From Pseudonocardia sp. T1-2H (GTDB lineage: Bacteria; Actinomycetota; Actinomycetes; Mycobacteriales; Pseudonocardiaceae), in NCBI RefSeq assembly GCF_038039215.1, contig NZ_JBBPCL010000001.1:4030001-4094000 (forward strand): a stretch of DNA of 64,000 nt. Direction: 5' to 3'. The notes below the pieces were generated by a model. It was not told the DNA's origin. It searched no databases and worked only from the letters and a program-made list of their open reading frames with translations. Each line of letters opens with the position of its first letter. Positions within the stretch are counted from its first letter, which is position 1. The translations under genes and the position numbers were made by a program. This document shows positions 33,494 to 54,867 of this stretch, one piece after another.

Positions 33494-33533
33494 GTGCGCG
33501 TGGAACCTCGCTAGAACGAGGTTCCACGCGCAC
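33494..33533. repeat. CTAGAA-loop hairpin, copy 1 (17-6-17)
   Basis: The arms 33494-33510 (GTGCGCGTGGAACCTCG) and 33517-33533 are perfect 17-bp reverse complements around the 6-nt loop CTAGAA. It begins four bases after the stop of the small membrane protein. Copies with the same geometry and loop but different stems are at 52827-52866 and 54828-54867. Confidence 0.85.
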
Positions 33534-33675
33534 GACCCGCGGTGACCTGTGGAGACGCAACCAGGCCTGCACGCCCGCCTGCCCGCCCGCGCGGGAGCAG
33601 CGCACGGGCTCGGGCCGGCGCCGGCCGAGGCTGACCCGGATCGAACGGGGGCACGGGGGCGTGGCCCCTCCGCGC

Positions 33676-33744
33676 GCCATGATCGCCCCGCCGGACGAAT
33701 TCGGTCGTGTCCGGCTGGAACCGGCCCGCCGTGGTGATCATGGC
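33676..33744. repeat. Dispersed CATGATC...GATCATG intergenic repeat, copy 1
   Basis: Ends GCCATGATC (33676-33684) and GATCATGGC (33736-33744) are inverted. Inside are GCCGGAC, TTC and GGCTGGAACCGGCCC. A second copy with the same order of blocks lies at 52407-52472. The 281-bp stretch from 33534 to 33814 holds no gene; it also has a GACTCGCGGGG motif at about 33808, like the unit of the array at 5337. Confidence 0.55.
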
Positions 33745-33814
33745 GAGGCGATCCGACGCGGACGTCGCGCTCCACTCCGCGACTCGGTGAACCAGGAACG
33801 CCGACTCGCGGGGA

Positions 33815-35114
33815 TCAGGTGGGATACGGGAGGGCGAGGTGGTCCCGCAGGGTGGGGCCCGAGTACTCGGTGCGATAGCTGCCCCGGTCCTGGAGCTCCG
33901 GGATCACGGTGTCCACGAACACGTCCAGGCCCGTCGGGACGAGGTGCGGGATCAGGATGAAGCCGTCGCTCGCGTCCGCCTGGACCGCCTCGTCGATCTG
34001 CTCCGCGACCTGCTTCGGCGTCCCGACGAACGAGTGCCGCGCCGTCGTCTCGACGATGAGCTTCTCGGATCGAGAGGTTCTTGGACTCGGCAAGCCCCCG
34101 CCACTCCCGCGCGAGCTTCGCCGTGTCCCGCTCGTGCCGCACCCGGCCGCGGGTGATGTTCACGTTCTCCGGGTCCGGGTCGACGTCCGGGAGCGGGCCG
34201 TCCGGGTCGTAGGCCGAGAGGTCCCGGCCCCAGACCTGCTCGAGAAACGCGATCGCCGTCTGTGGGGAGACCTGCTCGTGCCGGATCCGCTCGGCGTTCT
34301 CCGCCGCGTCCGCCGGGGTGTCCCCCAGGACGAACGTCGCGGCGGGCAGGATCGTCAGGTCCGTGTCGACGCGGCCGTACCGCGGCAGCCGGTCCTTCAT
34401 GTTCCGGTAGAACTCCCGGCCGGCCTCGATCGTGCTGTGCCGGGAGAAGATCGCGTCCGCGGTGGCGGCGCCGAACTCGCGGCCCTGCTCCGAGTCCCCG
34501 GACTGGATCAGCACCGGATGCCCCTGCGGGCTGCGCGGCACGGAGAACCGGCCGCGGAAGGAGAACTGGCTGCTCGCGTACTCGACGACCGGCGCCTCGC
34601 TCCCGACCTCCGCGCCACGGCTGAGCCACAACGCCTTCGCGGCCTCGAGCATCTCCCCCGCCCGCTCGTAGCGCTGCTCCGGCTTCAGGAACCCGCCGCG
34701 CCGGAAGTTCTCCCCGGTGAACGCGTCCGAGCTGGTCACGAGGTTCCACGCCGAGCGGCCGCCGGAGAGGTGGTCCAGCGAGGCGAACTGGCGGGCGAGC
34801 TCGTAGGGCTCGTTGAACGTCGTGTTGATCGTCCCGGCGAGCCCGACCCGCTCGGTGACGGCGGCGAGCGCGTTGAGCACGGTGAGCGTGTCCGGCCGCC
34901 CGACGACGTCGAGGTCGTGGATCCTCCCGCGGTGCTCACGGAGCCGGAGGCCCTCGGCGAGGAAGACGAAGTCGAACAGGCCGCGTTCGGCGGCCTGCGC
35001 GAAGTGCACGAACGAGGCGAAGTCCGTCTGGCTGCCGGACTCCGGGTCGCTCCAGACGGTGGTGTTGTTGACGCCCGGGAAGTGGGCGGCGAGATGGACC
35101 TGCTTGCGGCTCAT
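33815..35114 (-). CDS. FMN-dependent NtaA/SnaA/DszA-type monooxygenase (apparent frameshift near 34070)
   Basis: A bacterial luciferase-like flavin monooxygenase of about 433 residues. It starts KQVHLAAHFPGVNNTTVWSDPESGSQTDFASFVHFAQAAERGLFDFVFLAEG and contains SGGRSAWNLVTSSDAFTGENFRRGG and SPQGHPVLIQSGDSEQGREFGA, typical of the NtaA/SnaA/DszA/SoxA group, which oxidises chelators, sulfones or polyketides with FMNH2 supplied by a partner reductase. A one-base slip near 34065-34080 separates the last about 85 residues (HSFVGTPKQVAEQIDEAV). Substrate unknown. ATG 35114 overlaps the stop of the upstream monooxygenase (ATGA). Confidence 0.85.
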
Positions 35115-36262
35115 GCCCGCACCTCCGGGGCGTGGCGGTTGGCGGGCCGGCGCAGCCCGAACCGTTCCCGCAGTGTGCCGGAGCTCGGCGTCCCGGGCCG
35201 CGCGCCCGCCCCGACCAGCAGCGGGACCACCCCGTCGACGATCGCGTCCAGGCCGCTCGGCAGGGCCAGCGGCACGAAGGTCACGCCGTCCGCGGCGTGC
35301 GCCCGCACGACCTCCCCGACCAGCGCGGCCAGCCCCTCGGGGGTCCCGACGTGCCGGATCCCCTCCGGACCGGGACCCGGCGTGAGCGCCTCCAGCCGGG
35401 CGAGCTCGTCCCGGGCTCCGGCGTCCGTCTCCCCGAGCAGGACCTCGACGTCCAGCAACACGCTGATCCCCGACGGGTCCCGGCCCGCCTCGGCGGCCGC
35501 GGCCTGGACGTCGAGCCGGGCGGTGGCGGCCTGCGCGATGCCCGGCGCCGAGATCCGCACGACGTCCGCGTGCCGCGCCGCGACGACCAGGGCCTCCGGA
35601 TCGTCCGCCCGCACGACGACCAGCGGCTGGCCCTGCGGCGAGCGCGGGGTGATCGACGGGCCCTTCACCGAGAAGAACTCGCCCTCGAAATCCACGTAGT
35701 GCAGCTTGTCCCGGTCCACGTACCGGCCGGTGACCGCGTCACGGATCACCGCGTCGTCCTCCCACGAGTCCCACAGCAGCCGGACGGCCTCGATCACCTC
35801 GGCCGCCTCGAGCCACAGCTCGGACACGGGCGCGGCGCTCCGGCGGCCGAACAGATCGGCCTCCTCGGGTGTCCGGGAGACGGCGACCTCCCAGCCTGCG
35901 CGACCGGACGACACGAGGTCCAGCGTCGCGATCGCCTTCTGCACGTGGAAGGGCTCGGTGTGGGTGACCGTGACGGCCGGGACCAGCCCGATCCCCGGGA
36001 CGACCGGGGCGACCCGCGCGGCGATCGCCACCGCGTCGAGGGAGTCCCCCAGCTCGTCCGGATCTCCCGAGGGCGGGACGAACGAGTCCCTGAACGCGAC
36101 CAGGTCCAGCCCACCCCGGGCCGCCGTCTCGACGAGCCGGACGTGGTGCTCTGCGTCGACCAACCCCGGCACGTCCGCGTCGGGCAGCCGCCACGCCCCG
36201 GGATGACGGCCCGCACCGCCGATCTCCACCGCGAGGTGCAGGGGTGTCCCGGGGCTGCTCAT
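35111..36262 (-). CDS. LLM-class FMN-dependent monooxygenase, second paralogue
   Basis: A 383-residue member of the same superfamily, more divergent than the first. Recognisable blocks are LVETAARGGLDLVAFRDSFVPP, VTHTEPFHVQKAIATLDLVSSGRAGWEVAVSRTPEEADLFGRR, FSVKGPSITPRSPQGQPLVVVRADDPEAL, and IRHVGTPEGLAALVGEVVRAHAADGVTFVPLALPSGLDAIVDGVVPLL. Start ATG 36262 overlaps the stop of the NTF2-like gene by 4 nt. Two such enzymes side by side suggest sequential oxidations or a heterodimer; which one is unknown. Confidence 0.83.
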   Translation of the reverse strand: MSSPGTPLHLAVEIGGAGRHPGAWRLPDADVPGLVDAEHHVRLVETAARGGLDLVAFRDSFVPPSGDPDELGDSLDAVAIAARVAPVVPGIGLVPAVTVTHTEPFHVQKAIATLDLVSSGRAGWEVAVSRTPEEADLFGRRSAAPVSELWLEAAEVIEAVRLLWDSWEDDAVIRDAVTGRYVDRDKLHYVDFEGEFFSVKGPSITPRSPQGQPLVVVRADDPEALVVAARHADVVRISAPGIAQAATARLDVQAAAAEAGRDPSGISVLLDVEVLLGETDAGARDELARLEALTPGPGPEGIRHVGTPEGLAALVGEVVRAHAADGVTFVPLALPSGLDAIVDGVVPLLVGAGARPGTPSSGTLRERFGLRRPANRHAPEVRA

Positions 36263-36717
36263 AGGTGTCCGTTCGTGGGATGCAGGGCGCTCCGTTCGGA
36301 TCCGGGGACCGAGTACCCCCGGTCGGCGTAGGGGAAGCCGTCGAGCTCGGTCGTCCCCGGACGTTGCTGATAGTAGGAGCGGATCTCGTGGATCAGCCCG
36401 TCGGCGACGGTGAACCACTCGGCGCCGCGGGTCGCGACCCGCTCCGTGGATCCTTCCGGACGCCAGAACATCGTCCACTCGATCACGGCCTCGGCCGGGC
36501 CGGTGAGCGCGTGGTCGACCACCCAGCGGGCGTCGATCATGGATTGGACCTTCCGCCAGTACCGGGCCAGGTGCTCGCCCCCGCGGACCGGCGCCGAGCC
36601 GACGTTCGGTGCCAGGAACCAGTGCACGACCTCCGGATGCAACGTGGAGACCATCAGCTCGACGTCCCCGGTGCTGCAGCCGTCGTAGTACCGGGTGATC
36701 AGGTCCAGCTCGTTCAC
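36259..36717 (-). CDS. SnoaL/NTF2-like protein
   Basis: A 152-residue cone-shaped alpha-beta-barrel protein: ITRYYDGCSTGDVELMVSTLHPEVVHWF, GGEHLARYWRKVQSMIDARWVVDHAL, EAVIEWTMFWRPEGSTERVATRGAEWFTVADGLIHEIRSYY. The family includes ketosteroid isomerase-like, cyclase and ligand-binding members. GTG 36717 overlaps the PcaB-like stop, and its own stop overlaps the next ATG, so it is embedded in a strictly coupled operon. An isomerase or hydratase step between the lyase and the monooxygenases is possible. Confidence 0.8.
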   Translation of the reverse strand: MNELDLITRYYDGCSTGDVELMVSTLHPEVVHWFLAPNVGSAPVRGGEHLARYWRKVQSMIDARWVVDHALTGPAEAVIEWTMFWRPEGSTERVATRGAEWFTVADGLIHEIRSYYQQRPGTTELDGFPYADRGYSVPGSERSALHPTNGHL

Positions 36718-37844
36718 CGCGCCCCCAGGACCCGGTCCACCAGCTCGCCCGCGTGGTGCGGGGCCTCCGCCGGCGAGGTCAGCGCCAGGTTCCGCGCCAT
36801 CGCGTCGGGGTGGACGGCCAGTCCCTCCAAGCAGACCCGCAGGCGCGAGGCCGCGCCACCGGTGGCGCGCAGCAGGTCCGTGAGCGTCTGCCACTCCGCG
36901 TGCCACGGCCCGGCGGCCCGCTGGTGCTCGTGGTCCATCGCGGCCAGCAGCGTCGCCACCAGCCCCGGCGCCCGCCGCGCGGACGCCCGTGCCGTCACCG
37001 CCGCGATCGGGTTCCGCTTGTGCGGCATGGACGACGAGTCCCCCGGCGCCGCCTCGGAGACCTCCCCCAGCTCGGTTCCGGCCAGCAGTACGACGTCCGT
37101 CGCGGGCTTGGCGCACGCCCCCGCCGCGACGCCGAGCGCCCCGGCCAGCTCCCCGACCCGGGTGCGTTCGGTGTGCCACGGGACGCCCTGCCGGGCCAGG
37201 CCGAGCGCGTCCGCCAGGGAGTCCGCGACGGCCGGTCCGTGGGGGTGCAGCGCCGCGAGCGTGCCGGCGGCCCCGCCGAACTGCACCGGCAGCCCCTCGA
37301 CGACCGCGCGCAGCCGCGCCCGGGCCCGGTCCAGCCCGGCGCACCACCCGGCCGCGACCAGGCCGAACGTGCTCGGCAACGCCTGCTGGCCCAGCGTGCG
37401 CGCGATCATCGGGGTGTCCCGGTGCGCGGCGGCGAGCCGGGCGGCGGCGTCCGCGGCGGCCCGGAGGTCCTCCAGCACGACCTCCGACGCCCGGCGGACG
37501 AGCAGCACCAGCGCGCTGTCCATGACGTCCTGGCTGGTGGCGCCCGGGTGCACGGCCTTCGCCACGTCCCCTCCGGCGGCGGACCGCAGGAGCCGGGCCA
37601 GCGGGATCACCGGGTTCCCGCCCTCGACCGCGGCCGCGCCCAGCTCGTCGACGTCGATCTTCAGGTCCCCGGCCGCCGCGGCGATCACCTCGGCGTGCGC
37701 GAGCGGGACCGCTCCGTGCTCTGCGGCGGCGCGGGACAGCGCGATCTCGACGTCGAGCAGCGCCCGGACCCAGGCCGCGTCGTCGAGGGTCCGGTCGACC
37801 CGGTCCGCACCGAAGAGCGGCCCGAAGAGGGTGGTGCTGGTCAT
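36714..37844 (-). CDS. PcaB-like lyase (fumarase/adenylosuccinate lyase superfamily)
   Basis: A 376-residue member of the aspartase/fumarase superfamily, closest in feel to 3-carboxy-cis,cis-muconate cycloisomerase: NPVIPLARLLR, AVHPGATSQDVMDSALVLLVRR, the superfamily signature loop PGDSSSMPHKRNP and MDHEHQRAAGPWHAEW. Length is shorter than usual PcaB (about 450). TACGGT lies six bases before the ATG, again leaderless. It heads the four-gene operon. No protocatechuate dioxygenase or decarboxylase is present, so the true substrate may be another dicarboxylate or amide. Confidence 0.8.
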   Translation of the reverse strand: MTSTTLFGPLFGADRVDRTLDDAAWVRALLDVEIALSRAAAEHGAVPLAHAEVIAAAAGDLKIDVDELGAAAVEGGNPVIPLARLLRSAAGGDVAKAVHPGATSQDVMDSALVLLVRRASEVVLEDLRAAADAAARLAAAHRDTPMIARTLGQQALPSTFGLVAAGWCAGLDRARARLRAVVEGLPVQFGGAAGTLAALHPHGPAVADSLADALGLARQGVPWHTERTRVGELAGALGVAAGACAKPATDVVLLAGTELGEVSEAAPGDSSSMPHKRNPIAAVTARASARRAPGLVATLLAAMDHEHQRAAGPWHAEWQTLTDLLRATGGAASRLRVCLEGLAVHPDAMARNLALTSPAEAPHHAGELVDRVLGAR

Positions 37845-37896
37845 GGAAGGACCGTACGACACCGGTCCGACAGTCCGGTTCGGGGAGAATGCGCCC

Positions 37897-38535
37897 GTGA
37901 CAAGAACTGTGTTCCTCGACCTCGACGGCACCCTCGTCGACTCCGCCCCCGGCATCCTCGGCACCCTCGAGGAGTCCTTCGACGAGCTCGGCCTCACCTG
38001 GCCCGGCGACGCGATCGGCACGAAGCTCCTGGGCCCGCCCCTCTACGAGTCCCTCCCGCCGATCGTCGGCGAGGAGGCGGCCGCGCGGGTCCTGTCCGTC
38101 TACCGGCAGCGCTACCGCGAGCACGGCCTCCTGAAGTCCACGCCCTACCCCGGCATCGAGGAACTGCTCCGCGCGCTGGTCGCCGCGGGGACGCGCCTGG
38201 CGCTGGCCACCAGCAAGGCCGAGCCGTCCGCCCGCGCCATCCTCGAGAACCAGGGCTGGACCGAGCTCTTCGAGACGATCACCGGGGACACGGTCGACGC
38301 GCAGCGCCCCTCCAAGGCCGCGGTGGTCGGCGAGGCCGTGCGCCGGCTCGGCGGGGCGTCGCCGGACGCGGTGATGGTGGGCGACCGGCTGCACGACGTC
38401 GTCGGATCCCGCGCGCACGGGCTCCCCTGCCTCGGCGCGGGCTGGGGTTACGGCGAGCCGGGTGAGCTGATCGGCGCAGGCGCGGCGGCGGTTTGCGACA
38501 CTCCGGGAGACCTGCGGGCCGCCCTGCTCGGGTGA
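37897..38535 (+). CDS. HAD-superfamily phosphatase (Gph/PpaX-like)
   Basis: A 212-residue HAD hydrolase: motif I VFLDLDGTLVDS, motif II RLALATSKAE, motif III lysine in RPSKAAVV, motif IV VMVGDRLHDVVGSRAHG. The cap-insertion pattern is that of phosphoglycolate phosphatase-like enzymes, but substrate cannot be assigned. The GTG at 37897 shares a 52-bp divergent gap with the PcaB-like gene. That gap holds an ACCGG-N9-CCGGT inverted repeat (about 37861-37880), a possible shared control site. Confidence 0.85.
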   Translation: MTRTVFLDLDGTLVDSAPGILGTLEESFDELGLTWPGDAIGTKLLGPPLYESLPPIVGEEAAARVLSVYRQRYREHGLLKSTPYPGIEELLRALVAAGTRLALATSKAEPSARAILENQGWTELFETITGDTVDAQRPSKAAVVGEAVRRLGGASPDAVMVGDRLHDVVGSRAHGLPCLGAGWGYGEPGELIGAGAAAVCDTPGDLRAALLG

Positions 38536-38642
38536 CGGGGGACGTCGCTCACACGGCGTCCGGTCTGGCTCACGATTCGTTGTCCCTGGCTGACCGCCCC
38601 CGTAGCCTCTGTTCGAATTCAGCCCCGGAGTGTGGAGCGGCG

Positions 38643-39401
38643 ATGATGGACAAGGTTGTGGCGTCGGCCGCCGAGGCCGTCGCGGACATCGGCGACGGGA
38701 AGTCGCTCGCCGTCGGCGGGTTCGGCATGGTGGGCGTGCCCACGGTACTGATCGACGCGTTGATCGCGCAGGGCGCGACGGATCTCGAGACGATCAGCAA
38801 CAACCTGGGCGTCGACGGGTTCGGCCTCGGCAAGCTGCTCGAGGCGGGCCGGATCCGCCGGACGATCGGCTCCTACGTGGGCAACAACAAGGAGTTCGCG
38901 CGGCAGTACTTCGCCGGCGAGATCGAGCTGGAGCTGGCGCCGCAGGGCACCCTGGCCGAGCGGCTGCGCGCCGGCGGCGCAGGCATCCCGGCCTTCTACA
39001 CCCCGGCCGGTGTCGGCACGCTGATCGCGGACGGCGGGCTCCCGTGGCGTTACGGCCCCGGCGGCGAGGTCCTCGTCGAGTCCCCGGCGAAGGAGGTCCG
39101 CGAGTTCAACGGCGTGCAGTACGTCCTCGAGGCCGCGCTGACCCCGGACTACGCGCTGGTCCACGCCTGGAAGGGCGACCGGCACGGCAACCTCGTCTAC
39201 CGCAGCAGCGCGCGGAACTTCAACCCCGCCTGCGCCGCCGCCGGGCGGATCACCATCGCCCAGGTCGAGCACCTGGTCGAGCCGGGCGAGATCGACCCGG
39301 ACTCCGTGCACACCCCCGGCATCCACGTCCAGCGCGTCGTGCACGTCCCGGACGTCGAGAAGCCCGTCGAGTTCCGGACCGTGAAGGAGAACAAGGCGTG
39401 A
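38643..39401 (+). CDS. scoA: 3-oxoacid CoA-transferase subunit A
   Basis: A 252-residue alpha subunit: [27 protein letters not shown], the glycine-rich GGFG and [74 protein letters not shown]. It pairs with the beta subunit downstream to move CoA from succinyl-CoA to a 3-oxoacid such as acetoacetate. PcaI-type 3-oxoadipate transferase is an alternative, and would fit the nearby PcaB-like gene. ATG 38643 (or 38646) follows GGAG. The stop overlaps the next start (GTGA). Confidence 0.9.
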
Positions 39402-40024
39402 GTCTGACCAGAGACCAGCTCGCCAAGCGGGTCGCGGACGAGCTGCCCGACGGTTCCTACGTCAACCTCGGCATCGGCATGCCGACCCTGGTCCCCGGGC
39501 ACATCCCGGCGGACCGCACGGTCGTCCTGCACTCCGAGAACGGCATCCTCGGCGTCGGACCCTACCCGGACGCCGACAAGGTCGACCCGGACCTGATCAA
39601 CGCCGGCAAGGAGACCGTCACGGTCCTCCCCGGCTCCAGCTACTTCGACTCCTCGGACAGCTTCGGCATGATCCGCGGCGCCCACCTGGACGTCGCCGTG
39701 CTGGGCGCGATGGAGGTCAGCGCCACCGGCGACCTGGCGAACTGGGCCATTCCCGGCAAGATGATCAAGGGGATGGGCGGCGCGATGGACCTCGTGCACG
39801 GCGCCCGCAAGGTGATCGTGATGATGGACCACGTGTCCAAGGACGGCACCCCCAAGATCGTCGAGAAGTGCTCGCTGCCGATCACGGGACTCGGTTGCGT
39901 CACCCGGATCATCACCGACCTCGCGGTCATCGACGTGACGGAGGACGGCCTCAAGCTCGTCGAGACCGCCCCGGGCGTCACCGAGGACGAGGTCCGCGAG
40001 AAGACGGGCGCGCCGCTCGCGTAG
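39398..40024 (+). CDS. scoB: 3-oxoacid CoA-transferase subunit B
   Basis: A 208-residue beta subunit with the catalytic glutamate in [14 protein letters not shown] (about residue 50), preceded by [19 protein letters not shown]. Other conserved blocks: [29 protein letters not shown] and [31 protein letters not shown]. Together with subunit A it forms a complete transferase. GTG start in a 4-nt overlap. A large inverted repeat follows, which may terminate transcription. Confidence 0.92.
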
Positions 40025-40037
40025 CTGCACCCCGACC

Positions 40038-40090
40038 TGCAGGAACGGCACTCTCGCTCGGGCCTACCGCGCGAGAGTGCCGTTCGTGCA
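40038..40090. terminator. Large inverted repeat between convergent scoB and P450
   Basis: Arms of 20 nt (40038-40057 and 40071-40090) begin and end TGCA and share AACGGCACTCTCGC with one mismatch elsewhere; the spacer is 13 nt. It lies between the scoB stop and the P450 stop, so a bidirectional terminator is the simplest reading. Confidence 0.65.
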
Positions 40091-40104
40091 TTCGGTGGCG
40101 GCGC

Positions 40105-41310
40105 TCAGCCGCGGGGGCCCAGGGTCACGGGGAGCTGCGTCAGCCCCCGCACCAGGATGCTCGTGCGGTGGGTCAGCTCCGCCGGCTCCACCGCCAGGGC
40201 CAGCTCCGGGCGGTCCGCGAGCAGGGCGCCGATCGCGACCTCGCCCTCCGTGCGCGCGAGCTGCGCGCCCAGGCAGTGGTGCAGGCCGTAGCCGAACGCG
40301 ACGTGCCCGCCGGCGTCCCGCGTGACGTCGAGCGTGTCCGGCTCCGGGTACCTCTCCCCGTCCCGGTTCGCCGCGGACAGCCCGAGCATGACGACCGCGC
40401 CCTCGGGGATCGTCACTCCCCCGATCTCGACGTCCTCCGCCGCGAACCGCACCGGCGCCGTCTGCACGGGCGAGTCCCAGCGCAGGAACTCCTCGACCGC
40501 GTTGCCGATCAGCTCGGGCTTCGCCCGCAACGTCGCCAGCTGGTCGGGGTGGGTGAGCAGGCCCAGGACGCCGTTGCCGATCAGGTTCACCGTGGTCTCG
40601 TGCCCGGCGATGAGCAGCAGCATCGCCATCGCGACGAGCTCCTCCTGCGAGAGCCGGTCCCCGTCGTCCTCCGCCACCTGCGTCAGGGCGCTGAGCAGGG
40701 CGTCGTCCGGCTCGGCGCGCTTGCGCCCGATCAGCTCGGCGAGGTAGCCGCCGAGCGTGGCGCTCGCCTCGTGCTTCGCCTCCTGCGGCGACTCGTCGAT
40801 CATGGTCGAGGACCAGGCGCTGAACTCGTCCCGGTCCGCGCTCGGGACGCCCAGCAGCTCGCAGATGACCTGCACGGGCAGCAGGAAGGCGTAGCGCGCC
40901 ATGAGGTCGACGGTGCCGACGTCGGGCAGGGCGGCCAGCAGCTCCCGGGCGATCTCCTCGACCCGCGGCTTCAGCTCGGCCATCCGCCGCACGGTGAACG
41001 AGCGGCTGACCAGCTTGCGCAGCCGGGTGTGGTCCGGCGGGTCCATCAGCAGCATCATCGGCGTCGGCGCGGCCGGCATGGCGTCACGCTGCTCGGGCGG
41101 CAGCGTGTAGCGCCAGTCCTTGCTCAACCTCGCGTCGACGAACGCCGCGCGGACGTCGTCGTACCGGCTGATCAGCCACATCGGGCCGTCCGGCAGGTCG
41201 AGCCGGCGCACCGGCTCGTCGGCGCGGAGCTCCGCGTAGGCGGGATGGGGGTCGCTCCAGAACGCCCCGTCGAAGAGGTCACGGCCGGAGGTGGTGGTGG
41301 GCGCAGCCAT
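40105..41310 (-). CDS. Cytochrome P450 (bacterial class I type)
   Basis: A 401-residue soluble P450: MMLLMDPPDHTRLRKLVSRSFT (helix C), I-helix AMLLLIAGHETTVNLIGNG with the oxygen-activating AGHETT, K-helix EEFLRWDSPVQTAPVRFA with ExxR, and the heme loop FGYGLHHCLGAQLAR with the cysteine ligand. Needs ferredoxin and reductase, which are not adjacent; the reductase at 29713 could serve. Its ATG is 7 nt after TACAGT, and that -10 lies inside a TetR-like palindrome (41320-41337), so a repressor probably controls it separately from the upstream oxidase. Substrate unknown. Confidence 0.93.
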   Translation of the reverse strand: MAAPTTTSGRDLFDGAFWSDPHPAYAELRADEPVRRLDLPDGPMWLISRYDDVRAAFVDARLSKDWRYTLPPEQRDAMPAAPTPMMLLMDPPDHTRLRKLVSRSFTVRRMAELKPRVEEIARELLAALPDVGTVDLMARYAFLLPVQVICELLGVPSADRDEFSAWSSTMIDESPQEAKHEASATLGGYLAELIGRKRAEPDDALLSALTQVAEDDGDRLSQEELVAMAMLLLIAGHETTVNLIGNGVLGLLTHPDQLATLRAKPELIGNAVEEFLRWDSPVQTAPVRFAAEDVEIGGVTIPEGAVVMLGLSAANRDGERYPEPDTLDVTRDAGGHVAFGYGLHHCLGAQLARTEGEVAIGALLADRPELALAVEPAELTHRTSILVRGLTQLPVTLGPRG

Positions 41311-41317
41311 GCCCCTC

Positions 41318-42892: not shown

Positions 42893-42898
42893 CCCGGC

Positions 42899-48019: not shown

Positions 48020-48532
48020 TCAGGCGGAGAGGCGTCCGTCGAGCCGTTCCCCCGCCGGCACGGCCTCGGTGCTCCGCGGAACGGGCAGCGGGATCGCCGG
48101 TGTGGGCCCGGTGATCTCCGCGGCCACGGCGGCGAGCCGCGAGCCGTCGCACCAGGGTGCCCCCACCCGCAGCGTCGTGAGCGCGAGCGCCACGCCCGAG
48201 GCCGAGGCGATCGCGCCGCAGCGTTCGAGCAGCTCGGCCCGGGCCCGGTCCCCGGCGCACCAGGCGGTGGCGAGGGTCCGCGCGAGCCGGACGAAGCCCT
48301 GCAGGTCCGCGGTCTCGCCAGGGACCGACGAGGGCAGCAGGGAGGGCTCCCGCAGCCAGACCCGGCCGTCGCAGCCGATCACGACCGCCGCGGGCCCGAC
48401 GGCACCGTGCACCGTGCCGTCCGCCTGCCGCGCCAGCAGATCCCGCCCGACCGCACGCAGCACGACCGCGGCCTCACCCGCACCGAGCACCGGCCCCCGG
48501 GCCAGCAGGCGCTCGAGCACCACACCGTTCAT
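48020..48532 (-). CDS. Kinase-C-lobe-like protein without catalytic residues
   Basis: A 170-residue protein. The stretch VLGAGEAAVVLRAVGRDLLARQADGTVHGAVGPAAVVIGCDGRVWLREPS has the shape of a protein-kinase helix-E and catalytic-loop region, with HGAVGP where HRDVKP is expected and REP where DFG is expected. Helices without kinase motifs follow. There is no ATP-binding N-lobe. It looks like a degenerate or pseudokinase domain; this reading comes from pattern only. ATG 48532 has GAGGGAG 8 nt upstream, so it is a normal gene in expression terms. Confidence 0.55.
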   Translation of the reverse strand: MNGVVLERLLARGPVLGAGEAAVVLRAVGRDLLARQADGTVHGAVGPAAVVIGCDGRVWLREPSLLPSSVPGETADLQGFVRLARTLATAWCAGDRARAELLERCGAIASASGVALALTTLRVGAPWCDGSRLAAVAAEITGPTPAIPLPVPRSTEAVPAGERLDGRLSA

Positions 48533-48602
48533 GACCGATCTCCCTCGCCTTCGAGAGGTTCTCGAACGTCCGAGGTGAGATGTTACCGGGCGGTATGGGA
48601 GG

Positions 48603-50333
48603 TCAGGCGTCCTTGTCCGCGACGCCCGCCGCGTCGAAGGTCGCGACGTCCGCGAGCGCCCGCGCCGCGCCCTGCACGACGGGCAGCGCGAGCAGGGCGC
48701 CCGTGCCCTCGCCCAGGCGCATCCCGAGGTCGAGCAGCGGGGTGAGCCCGAGGTGCGCGGTGGCGAGCCGGTGGCCGGGCTCGGCAGACCTGTGACCGGC
48801 GACACAGTAGCCGATCGAGTGCGGCGCGAGGACCGAGGCGACGAGTGCCGCCGCGCCGGCGTTGACGCCGTCGAGGATCACCGGGACCCGCAGCGCCGCG
48901 CCGCCCAGGATCAGCCCGGCGAGGCCCGCGTGCTCGAGCCCACCGAACGCGGCGAGCAGCCCCATCCCGTCGGTGGGGTCCGGGCCGTGTCGTTCCAGGG
49001 CCCGGCGCACGACGTCGGTCTTGCGGGTGAGCGTCTCGTCGTCGATCCCGGTGCCGCGGCCGGTCGCCTCGGCGGGATCGGCGCCGGTGACCGTGCAGAT
49101 CAGCGCGGCCGCGGCGGTGGTGTTCGCGATGCCCATGTCCCCGGTGACGAGGCAGCGGTTGCCCGCGGCGACGAGGTCCCGGGCGGTCTCGATGCCGGCC
49201 TCGACGGCCTGTCGCGCCTGCTCGCGGGTCAGCGCCGGGCCTGCCGTCATGTCCGCGGTGCCCCGGGCGACCTTGCGCGGCAGCAGGCCGGGCACGGGGT
49301 CCAGGTCCGCGGCCACCCCGACGTCGACGACGCAGACCTCGGCCCCGAGCTGCCGCGCGAACGCGTTCACGACGGCCCCGCCGGCCAGGAAGTTCGCCAC
49401 CATCTGCCCGGTGACCTCCTGTGGCCACGGCGTGACGCCCTGGGCGTGGACGCCGTGGTCCCCGGCGAACACGGCGACGGCCGCGGGCTCCGGAACGGGC
49501 GGCGGGCAGCTGCCCGCGATCCCCGCGAGGTCGACGGCCAGGTCCTCGACCCTGCCGAGCGAGCCGCGCGGCTTGGTCATCCGGTCCAGTCGGTCCCGGG
49601 CCGCCGCGCGCGCCTCGGCGTCCGGCGGCCGGATCGCGGCGACCGTCTCCTCGAGCAGGTCCACCGGCTCCTCGCCGGGCAGCGCACGGTGCCCGAAGCG
49701 CTCCGAGTGCACCGCCCAGGCCAGCGGGCGGCGCCGCGCCCAGCCGGCCGTCGCGAGCTCGGGCTCGTCCGGGAACTCGCGGACGTGCCCGAGGCACAGG
49801 TACGCGATGACGTCGAGGTGCGCCGGGATGCCGAGCAGCGTGCGCAGCTCGCCGAGCCCGGCGTCGTCGAAGAAGCTGACCCAGCCGACCCCGAGGCCCT
49901 CGGCCCGCGCGGCGAGCCACAGGTTCTGCACGGCGAGCGCCGCGGAGTACGGGCCCATCGTCGGCTGGGTGAAGCGGCCGAGGGTGTGCCGGCCGCCGCG
50001 CGTCGGGTCGCAGGTGACGACGACGTTGACCGGGGTGTCCAGGATCGCCTCGATCTTCACCGTGCGGAACGCCTCGGCGCGGGCCCGGGGCAGCGACGCG
50101 GCGTAGGCGTCGCGCTGGGCGGCGACGAGGGCGTGCACCCGCTCGCGGACGCCGCGGTCCCGGACGAGCAGGAAGTCCCAGGGCTGGGAGAAGCCGACGC
50201 TCGGGGCGGCGTGCGCGGCCTGCAGCACCCGGTGCAGGGCCGCGTCGTCGACCGGCTCGTCGGGGAGGAACCCGGTGCGGACGTCGCGGCGGCCGTTGAC
50301 GACGTCGTAGAAGTTCGGCACGTCGGCGGTCAC
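48603..50333 (-). CDS. BluB-CobT fusion: DMB synthase plus nicotinate-nucleotide-DMB phosphoribosyltransferase
   Basis: A 576-residue fusion. Residues 1-215 are a nitroreductase-fold BluB that fragments FMNH2 to 5,6-dimethylbenzimidazole (FYDVVNGRRDVRTGFLP, SQPWDFLLVRDRGVRERV, GVGWVSFFD). Residues about 225-576 are CobT, which attaches ribose phosphate to DMB (DRMTKPRGSLGRVEDLAVDLAGI, AVFAGDHGVHAQGVTPWPQEVT, GDMGIANTTAAAAL, EHAGLAGLILGGAAL, DGVNAGAAAL). Thus synthesis and activation of the lower ligand of cobalamin are in one chain. GTG 50333 overlaps the previous stop (GTGA). Confidence 0.94.
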   Translation of the reverse strand: MTADVPNFYDVVNGRRDVRTGFLPDEPVDDAALHRVLQAAHAAPSVGFSQPWDFLLVRDRGVRERVHALVAAQRDAYAASLPRARAEAFRTVKIEAILDTPVNVVVTCDPTRGGRHTLGRFTQPTMGPYSAALAVQNLWLAARAEGLGVGWVSFFDDAGLGELRTLLGIPAHLDVIAYLCLGHVREFPDEPELATAGWARRRPLAWAVHSERFGHRALPGEEPVDLLEETVAAIRPPDAEARAAARDRLDRMTKPRGSLGRVEDLAVDLAGIAGSCPPPVPEPAAVAVFAGDHGVHAQGVTPWPQEVTGQMVANFLAGGAVVNAFARQLGAEVCVVDVGVAADLDPVPGLLPRKVARGTADMTAGPALTREQARQAVEAGIETARDLVAAGNRCLVTGDMGIANTTAAAALICTVTGADPAEATGRGTGIDDETLTRKTDVVRRALERHGPDPTDGMGLLAAFGGLEHAGLAGLILGGAALRVPVILDGVNAGAAALVASVLAPHSIGYCVAGHRSAEPGHRLATAHLGLTPLLDLGMRLGEGTGALLALPVVQGAARALADVATFDAAGVADKDA

Positions 50334-50725
50334 CAGGGCAGCGGGGTCAGGCGCGGGGGCACGATGGACACCCCGGGGACGGTACGGACCGTGAGCCCGG
50401 GGACCGCGACCCGCAGGCCGTCCGCGACCGCGGTGAACGCCGGATGGTCCGCCGGGTCGCCGGGGACGGCGAGCACGGCCGTCGAGCCGGGGCTCAGGCG
50501 GAACCAGTCCTCGATCACCGGCACCGACCCGGCGAGACCGGTAATACGCTCGACCCGCCAGGCCTCGGTGTAGAAGAAGAGCGTCGACTCCGCCGGCACC
50601 GCCGGGACGAACACGACGTCCGCCGCGGCCAGCACGTCCGCCGCCTCCGGGGCGAGCGACTCGGGCTCCCCGGGTCCGACGCCCAGCACCACCAACACAG
50701 CATTGTTCCGACCGTCGCCGGTCAT
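50330..50725 (-). CDS. Truncated tetrapyrrole-methylase-like domain protein under riboswitch control
   Basis: A 131-residue protein. LVVLGVGPGEPESLAPEAADVLAAADVVFVPAVPAES strongly resembles the N-terminal SAM-site segment of precorrin methylases such as CobI or CobF (GxGPGdpe...ADvVf). After VLAVPGDPADHPAFTAVADGLRVAVPGLTVRTVPGVSIVPP, which matches the next conserved region, the protein simply ends, lacking the C-terminal domain. The stop is genuine in frame because the following start overlaps it. It is first behind a cobalamin riboswitch and has a GAGGAGG site. Role unknown. Confidence 0.75.
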   Translation of the reverse strand: MTGDGRNNAVLVVLGVGPGEPESLAPEAADVLAAADVVFVPAVPAESTLFFYTEAWRVERITGLAGSVPVIEDWFRLSPGSTAVLAVPGDPADHPAFTAVADGLRVAVPGLTVRTVPGVSIVPPRLTPLPW

Positions 50726-50759
50726 CCTGGCCTCCTCGAGGGTCCGCGCCCTCCTCCGT

Positions 50760-50925
50760 CGACACCGTGCGACGGCCGGAGTGTCCTGGCTCCCGGATCG
50801 GCGTCTCGTCCCCGGCCTTCCCGCCGGTGTTGCGGCAGTGGCCACGCAGGTGGGGACGCACTCCCCGGTGACAGTGGCGGGACCGCCCCGGACTCGCACC
50901 GGGTTCCTCCACTGCCGTCGTGCGT
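50760..50925 (-). ncRNA. Cobalamin riboswitch upstream of the methylase-like/BluB-CobT operon
   Basis: On the minus strand the core elements appear in order: GGAACCCGGTGCGAGTCC, then CGGTCCCGCCACTGTCACC, GCCACTGCCGCAACACCGGC, GGGAAGGCCGGGGACGAGACG and the B12-box-like GGGAGCCAGGACAC. The gene start follows after about 30 nt. Boundaries are approximate. Confidence 0.85.
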
Positions 50926-50960
50926 CGAGACCATCACGCGGACGGCCCGGGGTCAAGCCG

Positions 50961-52172
50961 TCAGGCCCCCGCGGTGAGCCCCGCCACCGGCCCGATGACC
51001 ACGATCGCGGGCGGGCTGATCTCGTGCTCCGCGACCTGCTGCGCCACGGTGGCGAGCGTCGCCCGGACCGTCCGCTGGATGCGCGTGGTGCCGTCCTGGA
51101 TCACCGCGACCGGGGTGTCCGCGGGGCGCCCGTGCTCCACCAGTGACGCCGCGAAGAGCCCGATCCGCTCGACCGCCATCATCAGCACGACCGTGCCCTT
51201 CATCCGGCCGAGAGCGGGCCAGTCCACGAGGCTGCGCGGGTCGTCCGGGGCGACGTGCCCGGACACCACGACAATCTCGTGCGCGACGCCGCGGTGGCTG
51301 ACCGGGATCCCGGCGACGGCCGGCGCGGCGAACGCGCTGGTGATGCCGGGGACGACCGTGACGGGCACCCCGGCCTCGCTGCAGGCGATGACCTCCTCGA
51401 AGCCGCGGCCGTAGACGAACGGGTCCCCGCCCTTGAGCCGGACGACGAACCTCCCGGCCCTGGCGTGCTCGACCAGCAGCTCGTTGATCCGCTGCTGGGC
51501 CATCGCGCGGCCGTAGGGGATCTTGGAGGCGTCGATGACCTCGACGTGCGGGCCCAGCTCGTCGAGCAGGTCCCGCGGGCCGAGCCGGTCCGCGACGACG
51601 ACGTCCGCGCGGGACAGCAGCCGCCGGCCGCGGACGGTGATCAGCTCCGGGTCGCCGGGGCCGCCGCCGACCAGCGCGACGCCGGGCAGCACCGGGTCCG
51701 CGGAGTCGTTCACGACCCCGGACTGCAGCGCCTCGACCAGCGCGGTGCGCACGACGGACGAGCGGCGGTGCCGGCCGCGGGCGAGGACGCCGACGGTCAG
51801 CCCGTCGAACTCGCCGGTGGCGGGGGTGACGGCGGTGCCCTTCGACCCGTCGTCCGCGCGGACGCAGAAGATCCGGTTGCGCTCGGCCTCCGCGCCGACG
51901 GCCAGGTTCACCGTCGGGTCGTTCGTGCAGGCGACGACGTACCAGGCGCCGTCGAGGTCCCCGACCTCGTAGCGGCGCTCGGTCCAGGTGAGCTCCCGGG
52001 CGGACGCCATGCCCTCGACCGCCGGGGTGACCTCGGGCGACACGACCTCGACGACGGCGCCGGCCGCGATCAGCCGGGTGACGCGGCGTTGCGCGACCTG
52101 CCCACCCCCGACCACGACGACGCGGCGTCCGGCCAGGTCGAGGCCGACGAGGTACTGGTCGTGCTCGCTCAC
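50961..52172 (-). CDS. cysG: Siroheme/precorrin-2 synthase CysG-CobA type (dehydrogenase plus uroporphyrinogen-III C-methyltransferase)
   Basis: A 403-residue bifunctional protein. The N-terminal part (1-145) is a precorrin-2 dehydrogenase Rossmann domain, VVVVGGGQVAQRRVTRLIAAGAVVEVVSPEVTP with the asparagine segment VACTNDPTVN. The rest is the SAM-dependent SUMT, VALVGGGPGDPELITVRGRRLLSRADVVVADRL, VRLKGGDPFVYGRGFEEV, VVPGITSAFAAPAVAGIPVSHRG. It makes precorrin-2, the branch point to cobalamin or siroheme. GTG 52172 has GGAAGGA upstream and a second cobalamin riboswitch lies ahead. The ferrochelatase function is not obvious. Confidence 0.94.
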   Translation of the reverse strand: MSEHDQYLVGLDLAGRRVVVVGGGQVAQRRVTRLIAAGAVVEVVSPEVTPAVEGMASARELTWTERRYEVGDLDGAWYVVACTNDPTVNLAVGAEAERNRIFCVRADDGSKGTAVTPATGEFDGLTVGVLARGRHRRSSVVRTALVEALQSGVVNDSADPVLPGVALVGGGPGDPELITVRGRRLLSRADVVVADRLGPRDLLDELGPHVEVIDASKIPYGRAMAQQRINELLVEHARAGRFVVRLKGGDPFVYGRGFEEVIACSEAGVPVTVVPGITSAFAAPAVAGIPVSHRGVAHEIVVVSGHVAPDDPRSLVDWPALGRMKGTVVLMMAVERIGLFAASLVEHGRPADTPVAVIQDGTTRIQRTVRATLATVAQQVAEHEISPPAIVVIGPVAGLTAGA

Positions 52173-52199
52173 ATCAGGTCCTTCCCGGGTGTCCACGCC

Positions 52200-52335
52200 C
52201 GGTTCGCGGGGGATGTCTCCGCCGGTGCGGGGGTCCGACTCCCGGATGCGCCCCTCGGTGGGCGCCCGGTCACGGTGGCGGGACCGTCCCGGTGTCGCAC
52301 CGGGTTCCGCCGCGCCGACTGGGGAGATTCTATCG
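52200..52335 (-). ncRNA. Cobalamin riboswitch upstream of cysG
   Basis: The minus strand reads GGCGGAACCCGGTGCGACAC, CGGGACGGTCCCGCCACCGTGACC and, further on, GGGAGTCGGACCCCC as a divergent B12 box. The order and spacing match the aptamer at 50760-50925. It ends about 30 nt before the cysG start. Boundaries are approximate. Confidence 0.75.
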
Positions 52336-52406
52336 GCGCTGCTCCGGTGGCCGGAACCCGAACGGCGGAGCGGAAGGAGTGAGCCCGCTGACGTGCCCCG
52401 CCCGCT

Positions 52407-52472
52407 CATGATCACTACGCCGGACCGGTTCCGGCCGCAGGTGGCCGGTACCGGTCCCTCGCGCCGATCATC
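52407..52472. repeat. Dispersed CATGATC...GATCAT repeat, copy 2
   Basis: CATGATC at 52407-52413 and GATCAT at 52466-52471 bracket GCCGGAC, TTC and GGCCGGTACCGGTCC, the same order and nearly the same spacing as in the copy at 33676. The right end overlaps the stop codon of the CobE/CbiG-like gene. Confidence 0.55.
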
Positions 52473-52866
52473 GCCCGGCGACCGCGACGGCGACCGTCAC
52501 CCCGTCGCCCCTCGTCTTGGGCACCACCAGCACGGCCCCGGCACCGGCCGTGACCAGCGCGGCGGCCTCGGCGACGCTGGGCGTCCCGACCGCCTCCTCG
52601 ACCCGTCCGCTGGGCGAGGGCACGACGCAGGCGGCGAGGAGCGGCGCGGGGTGCAGCCGCAGCACCGCCGGCGCGATCGCCTCCCGGATCCCCGGCTCGT
52701 CCTTGCCCTCGACGCTCGCGAACAGCGCGTCCCGCAGATCCAGCCCGTACTCGCCCGCGACCTGCTCCAGCACCGCCCGCACCGCCGCCGCGCTCACCCC
52801 CCGCCGCGCCCCGATCCCCACCACCTGTGCGCGGCGTTTCGCGCTAGAACGCGAATCGCCGCTCAC
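52468..52866 (-). CDS. CobE/CbiG C-terminal-domain protein
   Basis: A cobalamin-pathway protein of 132 residues if GTG 52866 is used. VVGIGARRGVSAAAVRAVLEQV (the GIG.R.G signature), SVEGKDEPGIREAI, VPSPSGRVEEAVGTPSVAEAAALVTAGAGAVLVVPKTRGDGVTVAVA match the CbiG C-terminal/CobE family, which helps ring opening at precorrin-5. The first 14 residues (SGDSRSSAKRRAQ) coincide with a hairpin repeat, so the true start could be GTG 52824. The GTG at 52866 overlaps the CobB stop (GTGA). Confidence 0.82.
   Translation of the reverse strand: MSGDSRSSAKRRAQVVGIGARRGVSAAAVRAVLEQVAGEYGLDLRDALFASVEGKDEPGIREAIAPAVLRLHPAPLLAACVVPSPSGRVEEAVGTPSVAEAAALVTAGAGAVLVVPKTRGDGVTVAVAVAGR
52827..52866. repeat. CTAGAA-loop hairpin, copy 2 (17-6-17)
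   Basis: Arms 52827-52843 (GTGCGCGGCGTTTCGCG) and 52850-52866 pair with two mismatches around CTAGAA (52844-52849). It lies at the boundary between CobB and the CobE/CbiG-like gene. The outer ends are GTG and CAC as in the other copies. Confidence 0.8.
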
Positions 52867-54190
52867 GACCCCACCTGAGCTGCGGCGACGAACCTCGCGA
52901 CGGCACCGGGGTTGCCGGCGGGATGCGTGTGCAGGAACGACGCGTGGGCCCCGCCGTGGACGAAGCCCTCCGGTTCGGCGCCCCGCCAGCCCCAGGCCGG
53001 CCGCTCGCCGGCGCGGGGCGTGACCGCGCAGTGGTGGAACTCGTGCCCGCTCACCCGCTCGCCCGCCGCGAACAGCGCGGACCCGGTGAGCGCGACGGCC
53101 TCGCGGTAGCCGAGCGTCAGCCGTCCGGTCATCGCGGCGGAGGCCGGCAGGACGTCGCACATCTCGACGCCGTCGAGGTCCCGGCACAGGTAGAGCAGGC
53201 CGCCGCACTCCGCGTGGATCGGCGCGCCCGTCGCGGCGAGCTCGCGGATCGCGGTGCGCAGCGGGGCGTTCCCCCGAGCGCGACGACGTGCTCCTCCGGG
53301 AACCCGCCGGGCAGGACCAGCGCGGACGTGCCGTCGGGGAGCTTCTCGTCCCGCAGCGGATCGACGAGGACGACGTCGGCCCCCGCCGCGTCCAGCAGCT
53401 CGACGTGCTCGGCGTACCCGAAGCTGAACGCCGCCCCACCGGCCATCGCCACGACCGGGCGGCGGCCCTGCGGTTCACCGGTTCCCGGTGACCACACCTC
53501 GCCGCCCGGGAGCGGCTCGGCCACCGCGAGCACCGCGTCGAGGTCGACGTGCTCGGCCACCAGCTCGGCCATCGCGTCCACCGCCGACGTCGCGGCGACC
53601 CCGTGCTCCGCGGCGGTCACGAGGCCCAGGTGCCGGGACGGGACCGCCAGCTCCGTGCGCCGGGGCAGTACGCCGAGGACCGGGAGCCCGACCTCGGCGC
53701 AGGCGGCACGCAGGACCTCGGCGTGCCGCTCGCTCCCGACCCGGTTCAGCACCACCCCGGCGATCCGGACGGTCGGGTCGAACGAGCGGAACCCGTGCAG
53801 CAACGCCGCGACGCTGCGCGACTGCCCCTTGCAGTCCACGACCAGCACCACCGGCGCCCCGACCATCGCCGCGACCTGCGCCGTCGAGCCGTAGCCGTCG
53901 GAGACCCGGCCGTCGAAGAGCCCCATGACGCCCTCGATCACCGCGATCTCCGCCCCGCGCGCGCCGTGCCGGACGAGCGGCCCGATCCGCTGCTCCCCGA
54001 CGAGCACGGGATCGAGGTTCCGCCCCGGGCGGCCGGCGGCGAGGGTGTGGTAGCCGGGGTCGATGTAGTCCGGCCCGATCTTGAACGGCGCGACGGCGGT
54101 GCCGCGGCGGGCGAGGGCGGCCATCAGCCCGGTGGCCACGGTGGTCTTCCCCGAGCCGGAGGCCGGCGCGGCGATGACCACGGCTCTCAC
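52863..54190 (-). CDS. cobB: Cobyrinate a,c-diamide synthase CobB (apparent frameshift near 53273)
   Basis: A glutamine-dependent amidase-ligase of about 442 residues that amidates the a and c side chains of hydrogenobyrinate or cobyrinate. N-terminal ATPase domain: VVIAAPASGSGKTTVATGLMAAL, PFKIGPDYIDPGYH, IEGVMGLFDG. The C-terminal GATase-1-like domain includes VVLPGGFPEEH (ALVLPGGFPEEHV) and, after the break, the catalytic-Cys region. The C5 run at 53271-53275 lacks one base; restoring it gives LGGNAPLRTAIREL and leads to HAECGGLLYLCRDLDGV and MCDVLPASAAMT. GTG 54190 overlaps the cobO stop (GTGA). Confidence 0.9.
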
Positions 54191-54801
54191 CACTCGATCC
54201 CCCGCTGGCCCTTCTGCCCGGCGTCCATCGGGTGCTTGATCTTCGTCGTCTCCATGACCAGATCCGCGGCCTCGATCAGCTCGGGCGCGGCGTCCCGCCC
54301 GGTGATGATCACGTGCTGACGGCCCTCGCGGGCGTCCAGCACCGCGACGACCTCGTGCACGTCGATCCACCCCCACTTGATCGGGTAGGTGAACTCGTCG
54401 AGCACGTAGACCTCGTGGACCTGGTTCTCGATCCGCCGCCTGATCTCCGCCCAGCCCTCGACGGCCGCGGCGGCGTGGTCCTCCTCGGTGCCGGCCTTCT
54501 TCGACCAGCTCCAGCCGGCACCCATCTTGTGCCACTCGACGGGGCCGCCCTCGCCGGTCTGCTCGTGGACGCGGCCGAGCGCGCGGAACGCCTCCTCCTC
54601 GCCGACCTTCCACTTCGCGGACTTGACGAACTGGAACACCCCGATCGACCAGCCCTGGTTCCAGCCGCGCAGCGCGAGCCCGAACGCGGCCGTGGACTTG
54701 CCCTTCATCGCGCCCGTGTGGACGACGAGGAGCGGGCGGTTGCGGCGCTGACGCGTGGTCAGGCCGTCCTGCGGCACGGTGGTCACCTGGCCCTGAGGCA
54801 T
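54187..54801 (-). CDS. cobO: Cob(I)yrinate a,c-diamide adenosyltransferase (CobO/CobA type)
   Basis: A 204-residue ATP:corrinoid adenosyltransferase. The P-loop is VVHTGAMKGKSTAAFGLALR (about residue 30); other family residues are GVFQFVKSAKWKVGEEEAF, YVLDEFTYPIKWGWIDV and RQHVIITGRDAAPELIEAADLVMETTKIKHPM. Acts on the cobalt-corrinoid before side-chain amidation is finished. The start is ATG 54801, and GTGA overlaps couple it to CobB. The upstream gap to the chelatase gene contains a CTAGAA-loop hairpin. Confidence 0.95.
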   Translation of the reverse strand: MPQGQVTTVPQDGLTTRQRRNRPLLVVHTGAMKGKSTAAFGLALRGWNQGWSIGVFQFVKSAKWKVGEEEAFRALGRVHEQTGEGGPVEWHKMGAGWSWSKKAGTEEDHAAAAVEGWAEIRRRIENQVHEVYVLDEFTYPIKWGWIDVHEVVAVLDAREGRQHVIITGRDAAPELIEAADLVMETTKIKHPMDAGQKGQRGIEW

Positions 54802-54827
54802 GACGTTCTCCCTGGTCGGTCGGGGTC

Positions 54828-54867
54828 GTGAGTGCCTGGCCTCGCTAGAACGAGGCTAGGCACTCAC
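54828..54867. repeat. CTAGAA-loop hairpin, copy 3 (17-6-17)
   Basis: Arms 54828-54844 (GTGAGTGCCTGGCCTCG) and 54851-54867 pair with one G-T-type mismatch around CTAGAA (54845-54850). The right arm includes the TAG stop of the chelatase gene (54856-54858). Confidence 0.85.

Follow-up and report, generated by a model that had tools for sequence, protein, structure and literature searches.

A REP-like palindromic repeat of fixed size behind stop codons in Pseudonocardia, a candidate mRNA 3'-end element without a U-tract

Mycobacterial interspersed repetitive units (MIRU) are small intergenic repeats that overlap stop codons in operons, and the repeat treated here is likened to them by description only. 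It also resembles the repetitive extragenic palindromes (REP) of the REP-associated tyrosine transposase (RAYT) systems, which in the available parts of the surveys are short, many-copy extragenic palindromes, species-specific, in some cases near stop codons and in some cases arranged as inverted pairs (PMC2817692, PMC3733652, PMC12306157). Inverted repeats enriched downstream of stop codons are described in the accessible text of PMC13155455, and U-less "I-shaped" terminators of mycobacteria in that of PMC12288462, a paper that also cites work requiring a U-tract. Replication template switching, in the portions of PMC8604942 and PMC8794818 available, yields homogenisation of the arms and inversion of the spacer of an inverted repeat. 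How transcripts end in high-GC actinobacteria, with their scarce U-tracts, is debated. Here we analyse a hairpin with 17-nt arms and a 6-nt loop (17-6-17) that occurs three times in a 64,000-nucleotide stretch of Pseudonocardia sp. T1-2H (the window, C1:4030001-4094000 of a genome of 6,998,239 bases in 3 contigs, G000 below). The three belong to a REP-like palindromic repeat of Pseudonocardiaceae which, on a tentative reading to which we give close to an even chance, works as an mRNA 3'-end element.

A covariance model (R1) built from 27 copies finds at least 84 distinct places in G000, among which a few are weak or misregistered (e.g. 570581 and 4556169); here and throughout, copy counts per genome are lower bounds. 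By their letters, 63 places are of type A (apex CCTCG-CTAGAA-CGAGG and variants) and 21 of type B, with a loop that is mostly CCAGGG and a stem that is often longer, a split that rests on the motif and is imperfect. The repeat is a discrete unit. In 48 well-flanked A copies it is some 66 bp long, its sharp borders lying at -3 and about +62 when counted from the start of the hairpin, and the conserved form in the profile of these copies is CCT-hairpin-RACCCC-nnn-TGASCTGCGGAAAC. Of 62 A copies, 38 have the terminal tail, matched at 9 or more of 13 positions, at a single fixed offset and 43 have it at any offset, against 14 at any offset when the opposite direction is read. Among the 53 A copies with a common loop, 35 show it in the CTAGAA-like orientation relative to the flanks and 18 in the reverse. 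A second model, R2, adds 24 places in G000 (e.g. C1 5573903, 5619536 and 77461), which lie outside all position counts given below. The tail was rejected as a solo element, the exact TGASCTGCGGAAAC occurring only five times in the genome, three of them beside elements; at the remaining two sites (L355 and L358) the letters inspected contain no adjoining hairpin.

A preliminary description of the window had reported three hairpins with fixed geometry, fixed loop CTAGAA and changing stems, and this observation is confirmed. The loop decamer CGCTAGAACG occurs three times in the window against 0.06 times in shuffles. Over-representation of the decamer across the genome was rejected (29 occurrences against 40, that is 17+23, for its reversed control), and the 24 congeners listed contain 0-6 each. 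Twenty-seven of the 29 are nonetheless complete 17-6-17 hairpins, and together with the co-variation of their arms (below) the genome-wide search establishes a dispersed structural family.

Relative to genes, as predicted by a custom codon-usage predictor, 79 of the 84 copies are intergenic (59 of 63 A and 20 of 21 B). A stop codon lies within -25 to 300 nt of 80 of the 84, and 61 of these 80 begin at most 8 nt from the stop or overlap it; most copies in G000 fall between -12 and +9 relative to the stop, commonly in the form TGA-C(2-5)-TGTG or with the stop inside the arm. Among 46 intergenic gaps with room for other placements, 29 copies are found at the stop, against 9.2 expected under uniform placement. 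The gene pairs that enclose copies are 35 convergent, 48 co-directional and 1 divergent, compared with 35, 125 and 35, respectively, for all background pairs (Fisher P = 7e-5 for the convergent excess and 2e-5 for the divergent deficit), and with the background restricted to gaps of at least 50 nt (19 convergent, 59 co-directional and 35 divergent, n = 113) the convergent excess has P = 2e-4. There is no U-tract: the number of T in the 10 nt after the hairpin averages 1.0 and 1.1 on the two strands, with a maximum of 4 over the 84 copies.

The hairpins have a strict geometry, which together with a species-specific apex (inner stem plus loop) is new here. Palindromes with the ends GTGMGYG...CRCKCAC are exactly 40 nt long at 66 of 73 loci in G000, 23 of 25 in G042 and 41 of 42 in G041, all of them retrieved with a motif or model, a choice biased towards the standard form. 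In contiguous stretches of 200 kb from each of G129 and G067, scanned first for any stem scoring at least 13 around a loop of 3-10 and afterwards for the end motif, every family hairpin has the 40-nt core (6 of 6 and 9 of 9, respectively), the G067 contig having been picked for holding copies; all 15 are intergenic, at -14 to +23 nt from a stop. Unselected stretches of G000 amounting to 153 kb contain only one palindrome with the end motif, and it is 30 nt long. Among model-picked loci the loops vary (CTATAA, TTAGAA, CTACAG, CCATGG and others), as do the stems, and the 17-6-17 form and the ends GTGAGTG, GTGAGCG or GTGCGCG recur; over 38 aligned sequences the terminal GTG, G11 and G13 are invariant. 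The apex TGCCC-CTnnnG-GGGCA has 39 forward matches in G041 and none in G000, G042, G047, G068 or G067. G041 retains the flanks of the unit and, at many sites, the tail, and its best listed R1 match scores 51.9 bits, compared with 60-77 bits for most standard-loop copies in G000. At G129 loci L293 and L300, site-specific complementary flanks lengthen the stems outward past the 17-bp core, which could be a product of template switching or of selection.

R1 matches are found in 37 of 60 genus genomes, own included (E <= 0.1), and R2 matches in 77 of 150 genomes and 30 of 46 genera of the family Pseudonocardiaceae (E <= 0.01). In a wider draw, 30 of 298 genomes of the order match at E <= 1e-4, 18 in the family and 12 outside it. 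One of the latter, G344 (family f8 of the same order), has 13 matches, the best with E 5e-11, and the other 11 have 1-2; horizontal spread or an older origin are possible explanations of the G344 matches. Among named genomes, the 18-mer ACCTCGCTAGAACGAGGT is found at 16 loci, 14 of them in one Pseudonocardia sp. bin, RYN_114, where none of the 14 has fewer than 13 of 17 pairs, the left arm at L166 being 2 nt shorter. The matches in Gulosibacter and in an Eremiobacterota bin, with 12 of 17 and 9 of 17 pairs, are not full hairpins and were taken as chance.

That the arms vary together, as the preliminary description had it, was borne out. In the 27 copies picked by loop motif (set A1), 95.2% of stem cells pair, double changes occur at 8 of the 17 pairs, and the covariation score is 0.276 against 0.096 in shuffles, a value reached in 0 of 500 shuffles; the signal vanishes when the partner is shifted along. 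A genus-wide set of 38 gives 0.601 against 0.155, a value that is partly circular since its sequences were found with a paired model (R2, derived from R1 picks). Comparison of orthologous sites offers a way to tell selection from template switching as the source of compensatory change, as changes are mostly uncompensated against the nearest relative and largely compensated at larger distance. Between G000 and G042, 23 sites are comparable, of which 21 are shared, one is shared with a short deletion that leaves a hairpin, and one (4627790) carries a different hairpin; the shared fraction is biased upward, because the stretches of G042 had been selected around copies in that genome. At 20 gap-free sites with 340 pairs, 307 pairs are the same, one is a double change that stays paired, seven are one-sided changes that stay paired, and 25 break or regain pairing. 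Divergence is 5.0% in the stem, 16.7% in the loop, 7.0% in other intergenic sequence and 7.6% at third codon positions, and the stem value thus points to weak constraint. Between G000 and G041, the outer 12 pairs at 11 sites comprise 80 that are the same, 33 double changes that are paired, 5 one-sided changes and 14 unpaired, so that of the 52 outer pairs that changed, 33 did so on both sides and pair in each genome. Only the outer 12 pairs are relied on, because the G041 sites were found by the apex motif, which forces the inner five to pair. Of 15 sites, 11 were used; 404336 (13 pairs, dissimilar), 1515133 (same G041 hairpin as 1515032), and 3867477 and 4642188 (G041 hairpin not shown) were dropped.

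Given the different apices of G000 and G041 and their retained flanks and tails, sequence has been replaced at a constant place. A hairpin remains despite such replacement at the G000/G041 sites, at one site shared by G041, G047 and G068, and between G000 and G042 at 4627790. Constant place combined with replaced and largely paired arms favours the gene-end hairpin as the thing that is kept. Covariation by itself is an unsafe proof of RNA function, and we reject it as proof of selection here, since template switching yields the same pattern and changes against the nearest relative are mostly uncompensated. Selection on the fold, which had been proposed from the variable stems, is accordingly not established: in 25 of the 33 pairs changed between G000 and G042 a single pair is lost or regained, and the loop is found both ways round. 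A role at the message end is better supported by the position bias, the convergent enrichment, the near-absence from divergent gaps and a stem divergence below that of the loop.

Presence and absence could be followed at a few places. Two of the four elements of G041 L329 can be aligned: at one, the hairpin is 35 nt long in G068 and 39 nt in G047, and at the other a hairpin separates convergent genes in G041, with only 6 nt there in G068 and G047. G047 lacks a 2.3-kb part of the same region that contains two hairpins (L329:795-3138); one of the breakpoints is just behind the hairpin at 3085, and recombination at the repeats is a possible cause.

In the window, the repeats and their neighbours are as follows, with the borders of full units taken from the 48-copy profile.

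33256..33489, plus strand: 77-aa open reading frame (ORF) with no Pfam match, preceding copy 1
33491..33556, plus strand: full repeat unit of copy 1, consisting of CCT, hairpin, GACCCG and the tail TGACCTGTGGAGAC (33543-33556)
33494..33533, plus strand: hairpin copy 1, 17 of 17 arm pairs, loop CTAGAA, beginning 4 nt past the TAG stop of the 33256-33489 ORF
52468..52824, minus strand: CbiG C-terminal domain protein (PF01890), downstream of copy 2
52824..52889, plus strand: full repeat unit of copy 2, tail TGAGCTGCGGCGAC (52876-52889)
52827..52866, plus strand: hairpin copy 2, 15 of 17 paired with two mismatches, the stop of the minus-strand cobB-like ORF (52863-52865) lying within an arm
52863..54181, minus strand: cobB-like gene (CbiA + GATase_3), which reads as two ORFs
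54187..54801, minus strand: CobO/BtuR adenosyltransferase (PF02572), downstream of copy 3
54805..54870, minus strand: full repeat unit of copy 3, tail CGACCAGGGAGAAC (54805-54818), a loose match to the consensus tail
54828..54867, minus strand: hairpin copy 3, 16 Watson-Crick pairs and one G-T, the TAG stop of the chelatase-like gene lying within the 5' arm
54856..56859, minus strand: Mg-chelatase-like AAA/VWA protein, upstream of copy 3

The coordinates, geometry, loop CTAGAA with closing CG, outer GTG...CAC ends and gene contexts first given for the three hairpins all stand: copy 1 is behind the 77-aa ORF, putatively that of a membrane protein, copy 2 between the CobB-type and CbiG_C genes, and copy 3 between the Mg-chelatase-like gene and CobO. 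Predicted RNA folding energies of copies 1, 2 and 3 are -37.6, -28.2 and -34.2 kcal/mol (z -6.4, -3.0 and -6.8). The flanks and tail of the copy 2 unit are oriented opposite to the cob genes, and its tail overlaps the end of the cobB-like ORF. The tail of copy 3, CGACCAGGGAGAAC, ends 3 nt ahead of the cobO start codon and, judged from the sequence, is probably the Shine-Dalgarno region of cobO. The split of the cobB-like gene (overlapping ORFs 52863-53162 and 53129-54181) reflects a one-base gap in a C run near 53274 relative to G042, either a sequencing error or a true frameshift. A terminator search of window positions 50000-60000 gave no terminator-like prediction at the two cob copies, and an Rfam scan of the window at gathering score found no family at the hairpins. 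The sole Rfam match is a cobalamin riboswitch (RF00174, 50757-50950, minus strand, 78.6 bits). Long hairpins (17-25 bp) outside the family are found at 60402-60461, 14568-14624, 40038-40090 and 29061-29097, those at 29061 and 40038 about 14-17 nt past the end of a predicted gene.

Among 30 genus genomes, GTG...CAC hairpins are present between the chelatase-like gene and cobO in G000, G042, G041, G076, G022, G075 and, weakly, G020, where they score at the level of chance hairpins; G049 and G013 have degenerate GTG..CAC forms by eye. At the cobB end, a hairpin is found only in G000, G042, G041 and G076. G068 and G047 are without cob hairpins, with a cobO identity to G041 of 97.4% and 95.9%, respectively. 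Conservation of a locus-specific outer stem, suggested by the two cob sites, was rejected as a general rule, since at 11 orthologous G000/G041 sites the similarity of the outer 22 nt does not exceed that of shuffled pairs (15.8 against 15.2, P = 0.15).

On the 3'-end reading, the very stable 17-bp hairpin would fold once the stop codon is transcribed and, without a U-tract, would make transcription pause or terminate, block 3'-to-5' exonucleases, or do both; between convergent genes it would serve both directions, and within operons such as cob its effect would be only partial. Copies would spread and be homogenised within genomes through some process, and the arms would stay complementary because template switching repairs the palindrome and selection keeps a hairpin at the site. 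Termination or 3' protection, like the copying process, is what we infer from the distribution of the repeat. The lack of a U-tract and the occurrence in operons argue against a strong canonical terminator, and a U-less terminator, pause or 3' barrier fits better. The earlier view that these are not a simple terminator family is therefore right as regards canonical intrinsic terminators, which have a U-tract after the stem. It is weakened by other long, mostly U-less hairpins behind stops in the same genomes, and by the I-shaped terminators that the accessible text of PMC12288462 reports from mycobacteria. Several observations weigh against the 3'-end reading. Where genes are co-directional and a stop lies within 30 nt (28 cases), the next start codon is at most 60 nt from the hairpin in 14, which sits poorly with strong termination, and most of the 30 genus genomes lack such a hairpin at both cob ends, by eye and score. 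A terminator would not need its size conserved exactly, and this reading assigns no role to the 14-nt tail of the G000 unit. Czyz et al. in 2014 reportedly found that the mycobacterial polymerase requires a U-tract. Nor is the position special to this repeat, as hairpins outside the family share it, although their placement behind stops, with few U-tracts, also counts in favour of the reading: other long hairpins in the G129 and G067 samples are intergenic in 25 of 28 and 13 of 17 cases, most of these within about 50 nt of a stop, and of 39 non-family hairpins within -45 to 60 nt of a stop only 2 are followed by at least 5 T within 10 nt. One such sample (G129:C4:1000001-1200000, L359-L368) also contains more repeated 3'-end hairpins, GTGAAGGCCTCCTTCCC...GGGAAGGAGGCCTTCAC, behind stops and with no U-tract.

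The repeat might instead be, though it probably is not, a non-autonomous mobile palindrome, i.e. a REP-like or miniature inverted-repeat transposable element-like parasite inserted or copied by a hairpin-acting enzyme, which survives mainly behind stops because other insertions are lost. The mobile hairpin already considered in the preliminary description gains from the discrete, sharp-ended unit with a tail whose offset is the same in 38 of 62 A copies, from near-identical copies at 20 score-picked loci in G020, with the loop both ways round, from the G041 hairpin standing where convergent genes are 6 nt apart in G068 and G047, and from five inverted pairs of copies 89-101 nt apart in G000, the other places of the 84 not being so paired. 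A Y1 transposase gene (PF01797) is matched in 5 of 62 genus genomes, including the hairpin carriers G020 and G022. However, there is no match in the other 57, including G000, G042, G041, G023 and G067, the enzyme evidence being limited to this Y1 search with no search for other linked enzymes. Furthermore, 21 of 23 sites are common to G042 (with the sampling bias given above), no target-site duplication was noticed at the single clean presence/absence site, and copies crowd at the stop even in roomy gaps, for which tolerance alone is insufficient. What the 3'-end reading leaves unexplained is the strict size. A hairpin or cruciform recognised by a size-measuring protein (17-6-17, 40 bp, GTGMGYG), as a DNA- or RNA-binding site with an architectural, recombination or processing role, would account for the 40-nt palindromes of G000, G042 and G041 and the cores of G129 and G067, for the invariant GTG, G11 and G13, and for the apex peculiar to G041. 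We think it improbable, as there is no candidate protein, the 35-nt and 39-nt hairpins of G068 and G047 at one orthologous site imply that other sizes can substitute, and the sole palindrome in unselected G000 sequence is 30 nt long, the 40-nt loci having been fetched by motif or model. A bolder and rather improbable proposal is a dedicated factor that recognises the hairpin from its size and end motif, is responsible for copying or maintaining it behind stops and co-evolves with the genome-specific apex; its basis is that the 40-nt form is kept across many genera despite sequence turnover, and if true, Pseudonocardiaceae would possess a hairpin-handling system, not described before, by which 3'-end signals are installed.

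An element acting on translation, in which a hairpin no more than about 15 nt from the stop would hold back ribosomes and reduce expression, as reported for certain E. coli REPs, fits the 61 of 80 copies at most 8 nt from a stop, and the available part of the REP survey PMC12306157 states, citing earlier work, that REPs at most 15 nt from a stop stall ribosomes. We nevertheless regard it as very improbable: five of 11 score-picked copies in G129 are 19-24 nt from the stop, convergent enrichment points to transcription, and hairpins outside the family occupy the same position. It is hardly credible that covariation and persistence arise purely from copying and replication template switching with no function. 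The change counts between G000 and G042, the weak constraint on the stem and the loop found in both orientations would all suit such neutrality, but the strong position bias, with nearly no copies in divergent gaps, and the same geometry in other genera do not.

No description of this Pseudonocardia repeat was found in the literature searched by words and letters, as judged from titles and abstract openings in a collection that lacks most subscription papers, the letter search giving 3,013 unspecific papers; the word Pseudonocardia is absent from the accessible text of PMC3733652 and PMC12306157, as are Pseudonocardia and Amycolatopsis from that of PMC13155455. Like a REP, it is a dispersed extragenic palindrome (at least 84 places in G000, 79 of them intergenic, and 9 and 6 in the 200 kb of G067 and G129, respectively). 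It has no GTAG or CGTC tag at the hairpin foot, the conserved flanks in the 48 A copies being CCT and RACCCC, and with neither the tag nor a Y1 transposase gene, RAYT mobilisation and membership of the RAYT-type REPs are rejected for this genome. The stem of 17 bp with a 6-nt loop also differs from the GTAG stems of 6-13 bp and CGTC stems of 8-9 bp given in the available part of PMC3733652. Template-switched inverted repeats are the outcome of a mutation process and not an element, and such a process accounts for the arms and the loop orientation, not for position, size or copy number. The gene-end inverted repeats of PMC13155455, in its accessible portion, peak at +50 to +80 bp, whereas G000 copies lie mostly at -12 to +9. 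The family comprises hairpins of a standard form that can be counted and tested together, their size and position being fixed but their sequence free. I-shaped terminators, in the part of PMC12288462 available, are not described as a dispersed, fixed-size repeat with a shared tail, and for the present family termination is proposed from position and form; what the two have in common is a stable, GC-rich hairpin within 50 bp of the stop codon and soon after it, with no U-tract.

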